Assembly: GCF_001006325.2 (NCBI RefSeq)
Contig: NZ_LBIA02000001.1
Span: 2,233,501-2,297,500 of the forward strand
Reading direction: 5' to 3'
DNA from: Afipia massiliensis
GTDB lineage: Bacteria > Pseudomonadota > Alphaproteobacteria > Rhizobiales > Xanthobacteraceae
Length of the DNA stretch: 64,000 bases
Positions 8,812-60,626 of this stretch are shown here, piece by piece. The translations under genes and the position numbers were made by a program. Each line of letters opens with the position of its first letter. Positions within the stretch are counted from its first letter, which is position 1. The notes beneath the pieces were generated by a model that worked only from the letters and a program-made list of their open reading frames with translations, had not been told where the DNA came from and did not search any database.

Positions 8812-8976
8812 CTGGTGATCCGGTTCTGACATTCGTCCGGTATCCATCGCAGGTACTTTGACGAATGTCAGAACCAAAGGATCACCAGAATTATGGTGTT
8901 GCTAGTGTCCTTTCGTATCCGACGTTTGCACAGGCGACGCTGCGAAACGAAGCAAACGTCGGATACGGGACACTAG
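8812..8976. repeat. Composite multi-hairpin repeat, copy 1 (165 bp)
   Basis: Two adjacent long dyads. The first has arms around GGTTCTGACATTCGT, the second around CGTATCCGACGTTTG. Both are bounded by short GTGATCC/GTGTCC half-sites. Each dyad carries one arm with an extra TTT, and these bulges lie facing the centre, where AAAGGA and TCCTTT can pair to form a third stem. Near-identical arms recur at 14522-14685 (opposite orientation) and 37321-37482. The terminal CTAG supplies the stop codon of the adjacent LysR gene. Confidence 0.9.
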
Positions 8977-11635: not shown

Positions 11636-11728
11636 GTCGTCCACGCGAAAGCGGGGACCCATGCTTGGAGAGTTCACGAGAACCTCATTTATTTTGTGCT
11701 TCTGGGTCCCCGCTTTCGCGGGGACGAC
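11636..11728. repeat. Inverted pair of 26-bp palindromic repeats (family P1)
   Basis: Two copies of a unit built on GTCGTCC and CGCGAAAGCGGGGACCCA face each other (11636-11661 and 11703-11728) around a 41-base spacer. The same unit recurs as inverted pairs at 13482/13822, 42585/42667 and 56948/57046. These are intergenic REP-like elements common in Bradyrhizobiaceae. No gene lies between the arms here. Confidence 0.9.
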
Positions 11729-13481: not shown

Positions 13482-13848
13482 GTCGTCCCCGCGCAGGCGG
13501 GGACCCATCTTCCTTTTAAGCTAGCATGTCGGTCAGGTCCCGCCACTCGGGATTGTCCTGTTCAATCAGCCTTATTTTCCATGCTCGATTCCATTTCTTC
13601 ATCTGCTTCTCTCGTTGGATGGCTTCTTCTGCTCTGGAATAGGTTTCGACATAGACAAGGCGATAGACGCGATATCGCTTCACGAATTCTGAGCCTTGGC
13701 CAAGACGATGCAATTCGAGCCGCGCCGCGACGTTGTTGGTTACGCCGATGTACAGCGTTCCATTGCGGGCACTGGCGAGGATGGTAGACGTGGAACAAGA
13801 TTAGTCCTCACGCATAGCGAGATGGGTCCCCGCCTGCGCGGGGACGAC
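13482..13848. repeat. P1 repeat pair enclosing a GIY-YIG gene
   Basis: Perfect 27-base inverted repeats (13482-13508 and 13822-13848, unit GTCGTCCCCGCGCAGGCGG and onwards) flank a 313-base interior that is almost entirely a GIY-YIG nuclease reading frame. At the other P1 pairs in this window the arms enclose only 41 to 73 non-coding bases. The element therefore looks like the same shell carrying a gene. Confidence 0.85.
13516..13798 (-). pseudogene. GIY-YIG nuclease gene, frameshifted
   Basis: Small UPF0213/UvrC-N-type GIY-YIG proteins usually begin with HVYILAS and continue NGTLYIGVTN. Here FHVY is in one frame (TTG 13798), while ILASARNGTLYIGVTNN through to the C-terminal half (RYRVYRLVYVETYSRAEEAI) is in another. 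One extra base at about 13783-13784 (GG where one G is expected on the plus strand) explains this. The remainder is intact to the stop at 13516. It is either a true frameshift or an assembly error. Confidence 0.75.
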
Positions 13849-14396: not shown

Positions 14397-14521
14397 TTCG
14401 TCGTCCTTGCATTTCGTGCGGCGGGCTGTTGCCGTATGCACGAAACATCTTGTTTGATCCCGTTGGCTACGGCCGCGGGGCAACGAATGAGAACACGATT
14501 GCGGCTGGGCGGTTCCCGCCG

Positions 14522-14685
14522 CTAGTGTCCCGTATCCGACGTTCGCTTCACTTTGTAGCGCCTTCCGAGCGAACGTCGGATACGAAAGGACACTAGTAAA
14601 CTATAATTCCAGTGATCCTTTGGTTCTGACATTCGTAAAGGTGCCTGCGAAAAACGAGATACGAATGTCAGAACCGGATCACTGG
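14522..14685. repeat. Composite multi-hairpin repeat, copy 2 (164 bp, reversed)
   Basis: Same element as 8812-8976, in the opposite orientation, lying between carB and greA. The CGTATCCGACGTTCG dyad comes first and the GGTTCTGACATTCGT dyad second. Arm sequences match the other copies almost base for base, whereas the hairpin loops differ (for example CTTCACTTTGTAGCGCCTTC here). It is bounded by CTAGTGTCC and GGATCACTG. Confidence 0.9.
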
Positions 14686-25175: not shown

Positions 25176-25304
25176 CACCCCACCCGGCTGACCTTCGGTC
25201 AGCCACCCTCCCCATCGAGGGGAGGGATAAGAGGTGCGGCGACGTTCATTTTCTTTTCCCTCCCCCTTGTGGGGAGGGTCGGCGCGCAGCGCCGGGGTGG
25301 GGGT
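25176..25304. repeat. Inverted pair of family P2 repeats, outward arrangement
   Basis: Two units built on CCCTCCCC...GGGGAGGG plus a GC-rich stem and a GGGGTGGGG end. Here the GGGGTGGGG ends point outward (25176-25228 and 25258-25304). At 26983-27430 and 60498-60626 the same units are paired with those ends pointing inward. Confidence 0.85.
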
Positions 25305-25361
25305 CTCCTTTACGAGACAGAATGAGTTAGCTCACGACGACGGATAACTCGAAGGCCCAAC

Positions 25362-26982: not shown

Positions 26983-27430
26983 CCCTCCCCCTTGTGGGGA
27001 GGGTCGACCGGCGTTAGCCGGTCGGGGTGGGGGTACTCAATTCCGAGAGAATTCTCTCCATCACACCTTCGAGATTTTGATCGATATCGGAATTCCAGAA
27101 ACGCAAGACGCGAAAGCCATGCGAAACGAGAAATCTATCACGCCGAATATCTCGCTCCATGCCCGGAGCTAAGCCGTGCTGGCCGCCATCTACTTCGAGT
27201 AGGAGATGTCGGCGCAAACACGCGAAGTCCACGATGTAGGCTCCTATCGGCGCTTGCCTACGGAAATGATAACCGAGCGGTTTCAGCGCGCGCAATCTGC
27301 TCCACAGTTTGATTTCCTGTGGTGTAAGTTGCTTTCGAAGTTTGCGCGCATTCTCGTTGGCCATCGGCGTTTGCCGCTCACCCCACCCGGCTGACCTTCG
27401 GTCAGCCACCCTCCCCATCAAGGGGAGGGA
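26983..27430. repeat. P2 repeat pair enclosing a DUF559 nuclease gene
   Basis: Left unit 26983-27034 and right unit 27379-27430 face each other in the same arrangement as the empty pair at 60498-60626, where only ten bases separate them. Here the interior is a DUF559 gene on the minus strand. Its stop codon (27014-27016) lies inside the left unit and its possible longer N-terminus is encoded by the right unit. Confidence 0.85.
27014..27364 (-). CDS. DUF559 (Vsr-like PD-(D/E)xK) endonuclease-domain protein, 116 aa
   Basis: A Vsr/very-short-patch-repair-like fold: MANENARKLRKQLTPQEIKL, LWSRLRALKPLGYHFRRQAP, then IGAYIVDFACLRRHLLLEVD with the catalytic Asp and Glu-x-Asp, followed by GGQH. DUF559 proteins are predicted nucleases with unknown targets. 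A longer reading adds MISLPLMGRVADRRSAGWGE, which is repeat-derived translation. It is entirely enclosed by P2 repeats and appears intact. Confidence 0.85.
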   Translation of the reverse strand: MANENARKLRKQLTPQEIKLWSRLRALKPLGYHFRRQAPIGAYIVDFACLRRHLLLEVDGGQHGLAPGMERDIRRDRFLVSHGFRVLRFWNSDIDQNLEGVMERILSELSTPTPTG

Positions 27431-27440
27431 GATCATCGCA

Positions 27441-37320: not shown

Positions 37321-37482
37321 CAGTGATCCGGTTCTGACATTCGTATCCGACCCTTCGCGGGCACTCTTACGAATGTCAGAACCAAAGGATCACTAGAATC
37401 TTAATTTGCTAGTGTCCTTCGTATCCGACGTTCGTACAGAGAGCTCCGCAGAGTGAAACGAACGTCGGATACGGGACACTAG
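37321..37482. repeat. Composite multi-hairpin repeat, copy 3 (162 bp)
   Basis: Between dnaG and rpoD, same orientation as copy 1. It is bounded by CAGTGATCC and GGGACACTAG, with both dyads and the central AAGGATCACTAG / CTAGTGTCCTT pairing segment very clear. The loops differ from the other copies. The rest of the 390-base dnaG-rpoD gap shows no gene. Confidence 0.92.
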
Positions 37483-37542
37483 CGGTTTCAAATTCCACGC
37501 GGGCCACCGGCCCACGTCGTGAGCGTGTTTCAGGAGCAGTGA

Positions 37543-42584: not shown

Positions 42585-42693
42585 GTCGTCCCCGCGAAAG
42601 CGGGGACCCATGATCCCTGCGGTTTCATTTATCAACGTTGCGCAGGAGAACGAGCGGCCATTGGGAATGGATCCCCGCTTTCGCGGGGATGAC
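42585..42693. repeat. Inverted pair of family P1 repeats
   Basis: Facing 27-base units at 42585-42611 and 42667-42693 (unit core CGCGAAAGCGGGGACCCAT) around a 55-base non-coding spacer. Confidence 0.9.
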
Positions 42694-50936: not shown

Positions 50937-51185
50937 TATATTCCTATTCATCCCGCCTCACTTGAGGGGCGTGTCCTAGGACGCTTCGATGCGCGGGGCG
51001 GGATGCGGCGCCTGCGTGCGCGAGAAGGGACGTCCTTCTCCGCTCCCGGGAGGCCTCGGGTCACCGTCCGGGCTCACTATGGGGCTCTGCCGTTCGCGGC
51101 TGGACGTCGGTGAGGACGAAGGCGGCGAAAGCCGGCCGGATCAGGGGTCGATACTTCCCCCATCCTCACCCGGAAGTACGGTCCC
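50937..51185. repeat. Large dispersed repeat P6, copy X (about 249 bp)
   Basis: Starts TATATTCCTATT (50937-50948), then TGAGGGGCG with a CCTAGG palindrome, then long blocks shared with the inverted copy at 57439-57675, such as GCTCTGCCGTTCGCGGCTGG, GTGAGGACGAAGGCGGCGAA and CATCCTCACCCGGAAGTACG. The remaining 51186-51414 shows no gene. Confidence 0.85.
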
Positions 51186-51414
51186 GAGGACAGAAATCGC
51201 CGCGGCGGAGCGCTGAAAGGCGTTTCGCGGCCAGCCTCTCGTGGCGACACGAAGCCGGCCGCGCACTTAACTACCAAGGCGCGTCTTTCGGCGCTCCTCC
51301 TCCCTCTCTTCACTGAGAGGCGGCACACGGTTTGAAGACATCGCTGATTGGGCATCCGCGTTTTTCACGCGGGAAAGCGATCACGCACGGCAAAAATCAG
51401 GAAAGGAGACAGGC

Positions 51415-56947: not shown

Positions 56948-57072
56948 GTCGTCCCCGCGAAGGCGGGGACCCATACTCCCTGAGTTGTCGATTTGAGGGA
57001 GATGTCGGAGCAGTGTTCTCGCCACCATTATGATGTTCGGTGGTTATGGGTCCCCGCCTGCGCGGGGACGAC
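56948..57072. repeat. Inverted pair of family P1 repeats
   Basis: Facing units 56948-56974 and 57046-57072 around a 71-base non-coding spacer. Same unit type as the GIY-YIG shell at 13482-13848. Confidence 0.9.
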
Positions 57073-57438
57073 ATTGAGTGTGATGCGACAGCGTGGGTCA
57101 CTTCGACTTCATTCAAATTTCAAACAGCCACACACATCCGTTCCCGCGCGCCGAATTGCGCGGGTTGGGCTTTGGCTCACCCCTCGAAAGCGCGCGCGAG
57201 GCCTGCCTCGTTCGCGCCCTCATAAAATGAGGGGAGATGGAGCGCCGCCAGGCGCAACATCGTTGTCGTCGCTCGATCGTTCGCCGCTTGCGACGGCGGC
57301 AAACAAAAGAGCGCATCGCCTTGCGGCGCTCCATCGACGCTGCGTGCGGACGCCTCCGAAGAGGCCGCGAACCGCAGCGCGCGGATTCTCGCCACAGCGA
57401 ACGCTGCGGCAACCATCCGCTGCGGCGTCTCAGGCGTA

Positions 57439-57675
57439 GGGACCGTACTTCCGGGTGAGGATGGGGGAGCAACTCGACCCCTGATCCGGACGGCTTTCGC
57501 CGCCTTCGTCCTCACCGCGTCCAGCCGCGAACGGCAGAGCCACGTAGTTGGCCCGGACGGTGACCCTCAGCCTCCCGGACGTGTGGGTGCGAACCACGCG
57601 CGCGGGCGCCGCGCTTCATTCCACTTCAAGAACGCCTCTAGAAGCGCCCCTCATGAATGGAGCAATAGGAATATA
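57439..57675. repeat. Large dispersed repeat P6, copy Y (about 237 bp, inverted)
   Basis: Reverse complement of copy X at 50937-51185, from AATAGGAATATA (57664-57675) to GGGACCGTACTTCCGGGTG. Its TATATTCCTATT end faces the split nuclease gene, as copy X's does the OLD gene. Sequence between about 57113 and 57438 is GC-rich and non-coding. Confidence 0.85.
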
Positions 57676-60497: not shown

Positions 60498-60626
60498 CCC
60501 TCCCCCTTGTGGGGAGGGTGGCGCGTTGCGAGCGCTAGCGAGCAACAAGCCGGGTGGGGGTGATTTCGCAGACCCCCACCCCGGTCTCGCTGTCGCTCGA
60601 CCGACCCTCCCCACAAGGGGGAGGGA
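60498..60626. repeat. Inverted pair of family P2 repeats, inward arrangement
   Basis: Left unit 60498-60561 and right unit 60572-60626 meet with their GGGGTGGGGG ends ten bases apart. It is the empty equivalent of the DUF559-bearing pair at 26983-27430. The rest of the 60336-60754 gap has no gene. Confidence 0.85.

Follow-up and report, generated by a model that had tools for sequence, protein, structure and literature searches.

DUF559 nuclease genes between facing triplex-motif repeats as candidate REPtron-like mobile units of bacteria

The window, a 64,000-nucleotide stretch of the Afipia massiliensis genome (G000:C1:2233501-2297500), carries on its minus strand a 140-codon open reading frame (ORF; 27014-27436) that matches the nuclease family DUF559 (PF04480; E = 7.8e-36). 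The domain spans 27038-27358 on the same strand, and translation probably starts at an internal ATG at 27364. As the first-pass annotation had proposed, the gene lies exactly between two facing units of a palindromic repeat, P2. The unit on its 3' side (26983-27034, plus strand) consists of an outer hairpin (26983-27003), a second hairpin, and a gene-facing tail, GGGGTGGGGGT; the last residues of the DUF559 protein, STPTPTG, are encoded within this left unit. The unit on the 5' side (27379-27429, minus strand) has its hairpin at 27409-27429. Two end types are represented, i.e., type B at 26983-27034 (linker TCG..., four G before T) and type A at 27379-27429 (linker TGGCTGACC..GGTCAGCC, three G before T). 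The gene-less facing pair that had also been claimed for the window is indeed present at 60498-60625 (hairpins 60498-60518 and 60605-60625) and is, by eye, likewise A plus B. A second P2 pair in the window (25176-25306; hairpins 25206-25226 and 25258-25278) faces outward, and a further DUF559 unit (L004) lies approximately 3 kb beyond the window end.

The inverted repeat across the DUF559 locus scored 19.5 in a 320-bp interval test. The null, obtained with a 320-bp interval at 1042 positions in the window, had a 99% quantile of 14.8 and a maximum of 17.0; a score of at least 17.5 was reached at 0 of the 1042 positions. The window also contains a composite palindromic repeat of approximately 165 bp (GGTTCTGACATTCGT..., TTCGTATCCGACGTT...) in three dispersed copies (8815-8976, 14519-14684, and 37321-37485) and a pair of 150-bp inverted copies (51046-51194 and 57430-57578; 89 to 98% alike) that are 6 kb apart.

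A second repeat family, P1, shows the same arrangement with another nuclease. A GIY-YIG nuclease domain (13573-13782, minus strand) is enclosed by P1 units at 13482-13507 (left end, plus strand) and 13823-13848 (right end, minus strand), and gene-less facing P1 pairs occur at 56948-57072, 42585-42693, and 11636-11728, the last with a degenerate left arm. The claim that two unrelated repeat families each have an empty and a nuclease-holding form was therefore confirmed, including the P1 case at 13482-13848. The CGTC tag, palindromic stem, CCA tail, and head-to-head dimers described in the text of PMC3733652 for CGTC-tagged REPs were all found in P1, which we accordingly identify, by these features, as a CGTC-tagged REP. 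Those repeats were reported to lack a dedicated transposase (Di Nocera 2013, PMC3733652), in contrast to the GIY-YIG genes that fill dimers in the present data.

An exact pattern search detected 47 P2 hairpins in the 4.5-Mb genome of the window, 42 of which formed 21 pairs less than 800 bp apart. The gaps were 31 to 124 bp in 17 pairs and 390 to 464 bp in 4 pairs, with none in between, and all four long pairs enclosed a DUF559 gene. Because the P2 hairpin pattern is its own reverse complement, the search reads the 17 short pairs alike whether they face inward or outward; at least one (25176-25306) is outward-facing. Six DUF559 matches were found in this genome. Five lie between facing P2-kind units, one of these genes being in decay (in-frame stop). 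The sixth is the end part of a long ORF with a counterpart in 27 of the 29 genomes of the genus, and no repeats were found around it. Of P1, the genome holds 140 units, and pairing was analyzed among the first 100 of these: 40 of the 42 neighboring units less than 800 bp apart faced each other, giving 37 pairs with gaps of 36 to 82 bp and 3 with gaps of 315 to 399 bp, and the three long pairs all enclosed a GIY-YIG gene.

P2 also belongs to a repeat type with an earlier history. The TM_ECO elements of Escherichia coli go by the other names boxC and PIT. TM repeats, i.e., a G/C-rich hairpin plus a G-rich third strand, are on record for E. coli as well as for more than 260 genomes of bacteria (PMC4666352). 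P2 follows the TM plan of a G/C-rich hairpin and then a mirror third strand when compared by eye with Table 1 of that article, in which TM_ECO has the hairpin CCCTCTCCC-GGGAGAGGG and the third strand AGGGTGAGGGG (Holder 2015, PMC4666352). Judged by sequence plan, P2 is this known intrastrand-triplex repeat (TM); triplex formation was demonstrated for the E. coli sequence (PMC4666352), which P2 resembles in sequence plan. Strain MG1655 has 23 TM with five facing pairs, each made up of one type A and one type B unit (5/5; PMC4666352), the same pairing that P2 in the window shows by eye. No mobility genes close to E. coli TM are reported by Holder 2015 (PMC4666352), whereas here a DUF559 gene fills the TM pair, and does so across phyla.

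To place the locus in a wider context, PF04480 matches were collected from 61 related genomes. The 120 matches comprised 83 of at least 80 bits, referred to here as single-domain (mostly short ORFs), 33 of a long type (50 to 73 bits), and 4 fragments. All 83 single-domain loci were scored for an inverted repeat spanning the gene, with thresholds of 17.5 and 15. The association was near obligate: 72 of 83 scored at least 17.5 and 76 at least 15, and among the 7 scoring below 15, L255 is flanked by eye. No control PIN gene (0/30) reached 15, and 12 of the 33 long-type DUF559 genes used as a control yielded 0/12 at 17.5 and 1/12 at 15. Homologs in the lineage are hence not mostly outside such repeats; a majority outside would have spoken against the first-pass proposal.

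The association extends beyond these relatives. In 80 named loci from all bacteria, which rank highest against a five-row alignment among the matches listed and therefore are not a random sample, 57 scored at least 17.5, 64 at least 15, and 16 below 15; control intervals elsewhere in the named loci scored at least 17.5 in 0/128 and at least 15 in 1/128 cases. By record title, a score of at least 15 was reached by 30 of 39 alphaproteobacterial and 34 of 41 other or unassigned loci, including Desulfobacterales, Nitrospira, Chloroflexi, Gastranaerophilales, and candidate phyla. Among those below 15 were Enterobacter (L161), Labrys (L167), and two loci of Mesorhizobium (L178 and L180). A script assigned a TM-like arm to 60 of the 64 scoring loci. 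Of the other four, L121 has an unrelated inverted repeat of great length, L163 has a run of C, and L145 and L169 both have TM-like arms by eye. Chance association of DUF559 with the repeats was ruled out by the census and its controls (null positions, PIN genes, and intervals elsewhere).

Some loci depart from the common layout. DUF559 genes of Legionella anisa (L151) and Bipolaricaulota (L121) have inverted repeats of approximately 150 bp, compared with the short TM units elsewhere; the biggest scores, e.g., that of L151, come from long arms that include TM units, and the arms of L121 do not look TM-like. TM units are reversed (tail outward) around the DUF559 genes of L110, L129, L150, and L155. 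In E. coli, the DUF559 gene is ycjD, with a match in 3365 of 5426 genomes. Only one of its sides bears an intact TM, at a distance of 167 nt (sapF-fabI; L242, L236, and L243), and in three ycjD-less E. coli strains an efflux operon replaces it at the same place (PMC12817139). With its one-sided TM and the efflux operon in strains that lack it, ycjD was rejected as a clean filled/empty case.

Each nuclease keeps to its own repeat family. At least one TM-type arm was assigned by script in 75 of the 76 scoring DUF559 loci, and the remaining one is TM-like by eye. The GIY-YIG sample combined 40 loci retrieved by searches with the 40 rows listed next; 79 of these 80 were testable, and UvrC and other long ORFs were included. 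Of the sample, 45 scored at least 17.5 and 49 at least 15. CGTC-type arms were assigned by script in 41 of the 49, seven were left unclassified, some of which by eye contain CGTC units in reverse, and the sole TM flag (L342) was a pattern error, the arms being CGTC-tagged by eye. Among the 76 scoring DUF559 and 79 testable GIY-YIG loci, we saw TM units enclose no GIY-YIG gene and CGTC units no DUF559 gene. Several CGTC-type families (CGTCATTGCGAG, CGTCATGGCCGGG, CCTCATCCTGAGG, and CGTCATTCCGG) hold GIY-YIG genes (L007-L014, L047-L075, and L304-L343).

Repeat subtypes also match nuclease clades. For 69 of the 76 loci (arms of 24 to 120 bases), DUF559 protein identity was compared with repeat similarity; between genomes, the correlation was r = 0.557, a value reached by 0 of 1000 permutations and by 0 of 2000 within-genome shuffles. 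For sites without homologous outer flanks, r was 0.370 (permutation maximum, 0.165), a set in which a few pairs are actually same-site pairs, since L274 and L039 also lie at the glyQ|glyS junction described below according to a glyS search, their flank being hidden by contig ends. The nuclease tree, built from few columns and weak at several forks, shows 7 changes of repeat subtype and 11 of site. Flanking units varying in family at random would, according to the first-pass annotation, have made the association coincidental; they do not vary in this way, with DUF559 accompanied by TM and GIY-YIG by CGTC repeats and with subtypes that co-diversify with the nuclease. In the P2 subfamily, the unit upstream of the gene is unlike the one downstream, and each kept its side in 8 of 8 loci grouped by eye (L002, L004, L255, L264, L265, L273, L106, and L107, some being the same site in two species). 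A single end polarity for all loci held only in part: the G-run before T was shorter upstream in 32, longer in 11, and equal in 63 of the 106 loci in which both sides could be parsed (57 of 163 were left out). Among the 69 loci, no pair without homologous flanks exceeded 80% identity, i.e., there were no recent near-identical DUF559 copies at different sites.

The glyQ and glyS genes are essential. At their junction (glycyl-tRNA synthetase, alpha and beta subunits by Pfam; L344-L372), a DUF559 unit was present in 11 of the 29 genomes of the genus, and no TM repeat was found at the 18 empty junctions (18/18), where few bases separate the genes; the whole unit, repeats included, therefore moves. 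Filled and empty species are interleaved on the glyS tree, with at least 10 changes (gains and losses counted alike). Three nuclease/repeat clades occupy the junction within the genus, and G018 (T4) and G024 (T0), with glyS genes that are 93.1% identical, have different clades there. By eye, an older TM unit of another type is left over to the left of the unit in G002 and G018 and to the right in G022 and G024, and an older TM unit of the T4 type lies to the right in G014. These scars suggest that units replace one another. Outside the genus, the loci of G032 and G055 have outer flanks homologous to glyQ|glyS. The junction is a recurrent home of DUF559 units.

Two further sites were compared. 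At the window's own DUF559 site (12 loci read), the unit is also present in G019, one TM hairpin is found in G009, neither P2 nor CGTC repeats occur in G011 and G028, CGTC-type repeats are located in G026, G014, G027, G005, and G004, and the neighboring gene differs in G012 and G022. At the window's GIY-YIG site, P1 is absent in G026, G027, and G005, and one P1 is present in G014. In G019, the shell still retains, by eye, both ends of the GIY-YIG gene; empty shells can therefore come from internal deletion. The L004 site is occupied by an unrelated ORF of 107 codons in G026 and by similar sequence in G005, and the DUF559 unit therefore seems to have displaced DNA there. A search of 70 loci for target duplications revealed none; the shared substring averaged 3.24, compared with 3.30 in mispaired controls. 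The coming and going of the whole unit is well supported at one junction and was seen at two more sites. The comparison of empty and filled orthologous sites that had been proposed did reveal the whole unit as present or absent at glyQ|glyS, but the empty sites had no TM shell.

These sites bear on the reading in which the nuclease gene alone enters ready-made facing pairs, with cleavage of the empty pair and copying in by gene conversion. In its favor, gene-less P2 pairs are abundant (17 in the genome of the window), and newer units at glyQ|glyS sit beside what appear by eye to be single older-type TM units (G002, G018, G022, G024, and G014). The 18 empty junctions devoid of TM repeats argue against it, as do the joint changes of nuclease and repeat subtype and the GIY-YIG site of G019, which by eye is a filled unit minus its middle, i.e., the opposite direction. 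We regard homing of this kind as improbable as the full explanation.

The number of repeats follows the number of nuclease genes. Ignoring kinship, TM hairpins and DUF559 genes per genome had a Spearman correlation of 0.72 in the 61 genomes and 0.79 in the genus, and the median number of TM hairpins was 47.5 in the 38 genomes with DUF559 and 2 in the 23 without. Many TM hairpins without a strong DUF559 match were counted in G041 (35) and G016 (27). For GIY-YIG genes and P1-type units, the coefficient was 0.66 in the genus and 0.14 (no correlation) outside it, and the genus cross-correlations were weaker (DUF559 versus P1, 0.58; GIY-YIG versus TM, 0.51), again with kinship ignored. If the TM and CGTC repeats were moved by another enzyme, e.g., a RAYT or the transposase of an IS acting in trans, with the nuclease riding inside as a passenger, this linkage would not be expected, nor would the co-diversification of repeat and nuclease subtypes or the contents of the long pairs (only DUF559 in the four of P2, and only GIY-YIG in the three found among the 100 P1 units analyzed). 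Di Nocera 2013 (PMC3733652) also reported no CGTC-associated transposase. Cleavage of the repeats by the nuclease is something that we infer, which leaves the passenger reading some room, but we consider it somewhat less probable still.

The DUF559 protein is predicted to be a Vsr/EDxHD-homing-type PD-(D/E)XK nuclease, EDxHD being the name of a homing endonuclease type. Residues E15, D44, E55, D57, and H61 are invariant in an 18-row alignment, and the predicted structure (mean pLDDT, 88) matched PDB 3hrl (E = 4.6e-7), I-Bth0305I (3r3p; 8.9e-5), and Vsr (1cw0; 5.5e-3); 3hrl was also found in sequence by the DUF559 profile (E = 1.4e-32). The dN/dS ratios of 0.05 to 0.27 in 16 related DUF559 pairs, mostly same-site, indicate that the nuclease is under purifying selection. 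A host function would likewise be consistent with long persistence of the gene at fixed sites under such selection. In Caulobacter, the DUF559 protein VsrA is a proposed mismatch-repair enzyme, and a methyltransferase mutant requires it for its SOS response (PMC12907096), a requirement that fits, by analogy, a DUF559 nuclease active in cells. That DUF559 is a resident Vsr-like repair nuclease with TM units as its terminators or regulators, as purifying selection, VsrA of Caulobacter (PMC12907096), and a possible terminator role of TM hairpins might suggest, is very unlikely given at least 10 presence flips at one junction in one genus, the different nuclease clades holding that same site, and the excess of gene-less over filled P2 pairs (17 versus 4).

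We consider it likely, from the sequence comparisons, that TM-DUF559-TM is a single REPtron-like mobile unit, that a nuclease of the Vsr/homing type drives it, and that the gene-less pairs are its dependants. Such a unit would be approximately 0.45 kb long, with facing TM repeats as ends and one gene inside, each end having an outer CYCTCCC hairpin and then a G-rich third-strand tail directed at the gene. As the putative motor of movement, the nuclease would recognize and nick or cut its own TM ends, probably at replication forks when single-stranded DNA lets them fold, and the unit would be copied or re-inserted by host repair. Gene-less TM pairs may be non-autonomous derivatives that the enzyme moves in trans, in the way that RAYTs move REPINs, and GIY-YIG genes with CGTC-tagged REPs may constitute a parallel system of the same design. 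The earlier idea of small nucleases as dissemination factors is supported by the correlated copy numbers and by the filled and empty sites; homing into ready-made shells does not appear to be the main route at glyQ|glyS, the one junction surveyed. On a broader proposal we are evenly divided: TM-DUF559-TM and CGTC-GIYYIG-CGTC may have been assembled independently and belong to an undescribed, pan-bacterial class of mobile elements that lack a transposase and spread through host break repair, by means of one small nuclease recognizing the folded palindrome, in one case an intrastrand triplex, at the ends of its own gene. In that class, thousands of gene-less repeat pairs would spread in trans, and two widespread orphan repeat families of the bacterial chromosome would be remains.

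The first-pass annotation had likened the arrangement to REP elements with their RAYT transposases. The analogy of layout is a fair one, since REPtrons and REPINs share with TM-DUF559 a small enzyme gene between facing palindromes, many gene-less pairs, and enzyme-repeat specificity; REPIN copy number is tied to the RAYT enzyme, as that of TM is to DUF559. Membership fails because the DUF559 enzyme is not an HUH tyrosine transposase. REPtrons combine such a transposase with GTAG-tagged REPs, whereas the gene between the repeats here is Pfam DUF559 with a PD-(D/E)XK/Vsr fold, or GIY-YIG, and the repeats lack the GTAG tag, P2 (TM) ending in GGGGTGGGGGT and P1 being CGTC-tagged. DUF559 has its nuclease fold in common with free-standing EDxHD/Vsr-like homing endonucleases (I-Bth0305I), and the recurrent use of one conserved junction, with glyQ|glyS occupied repeatedly, would be compatible with their behavior. 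EDxHD- and GIY-YIG-type homing endonucleases, however, reside in introns, inteins, or phage genes and are not known to have terminal palindromes, whereas the unit described here has its own repeat ends and plentiful gene-less copies. MITEs and insertion sequences resemble the unit in their inverted terminal repeats and internally deleted derivatives but differ from it in that the unit has no known transposase and no target duplication (70 loci).

A literature search in which preprints were outside the scope and subscription journals were thinly covered, so that prior print is possible, returned no paper linking DUF559 or GIY-YIG genes to TM or CGTC repeats. Two widespread repeat families, TM and CGTC, have long been without a mobility partner, and a candidate enzyme can now be named for each, backed by specificity and, for DUF559, also by co-evolution with the repeat and by filled and empty sites. 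The question of mobility can therefore be addressed experimentally with short oligonucleotides and just two small proteins. If true, the proposal would give a biological role to the DUF559 family, which is still listed as function-unknown in Pfam. An evolution experiment detected mutation and recombination hotspots beside GIY-YIG and DUF559 genes (PMC12308824), and the proposal, if true, would also suggest a cause of these hotspots.
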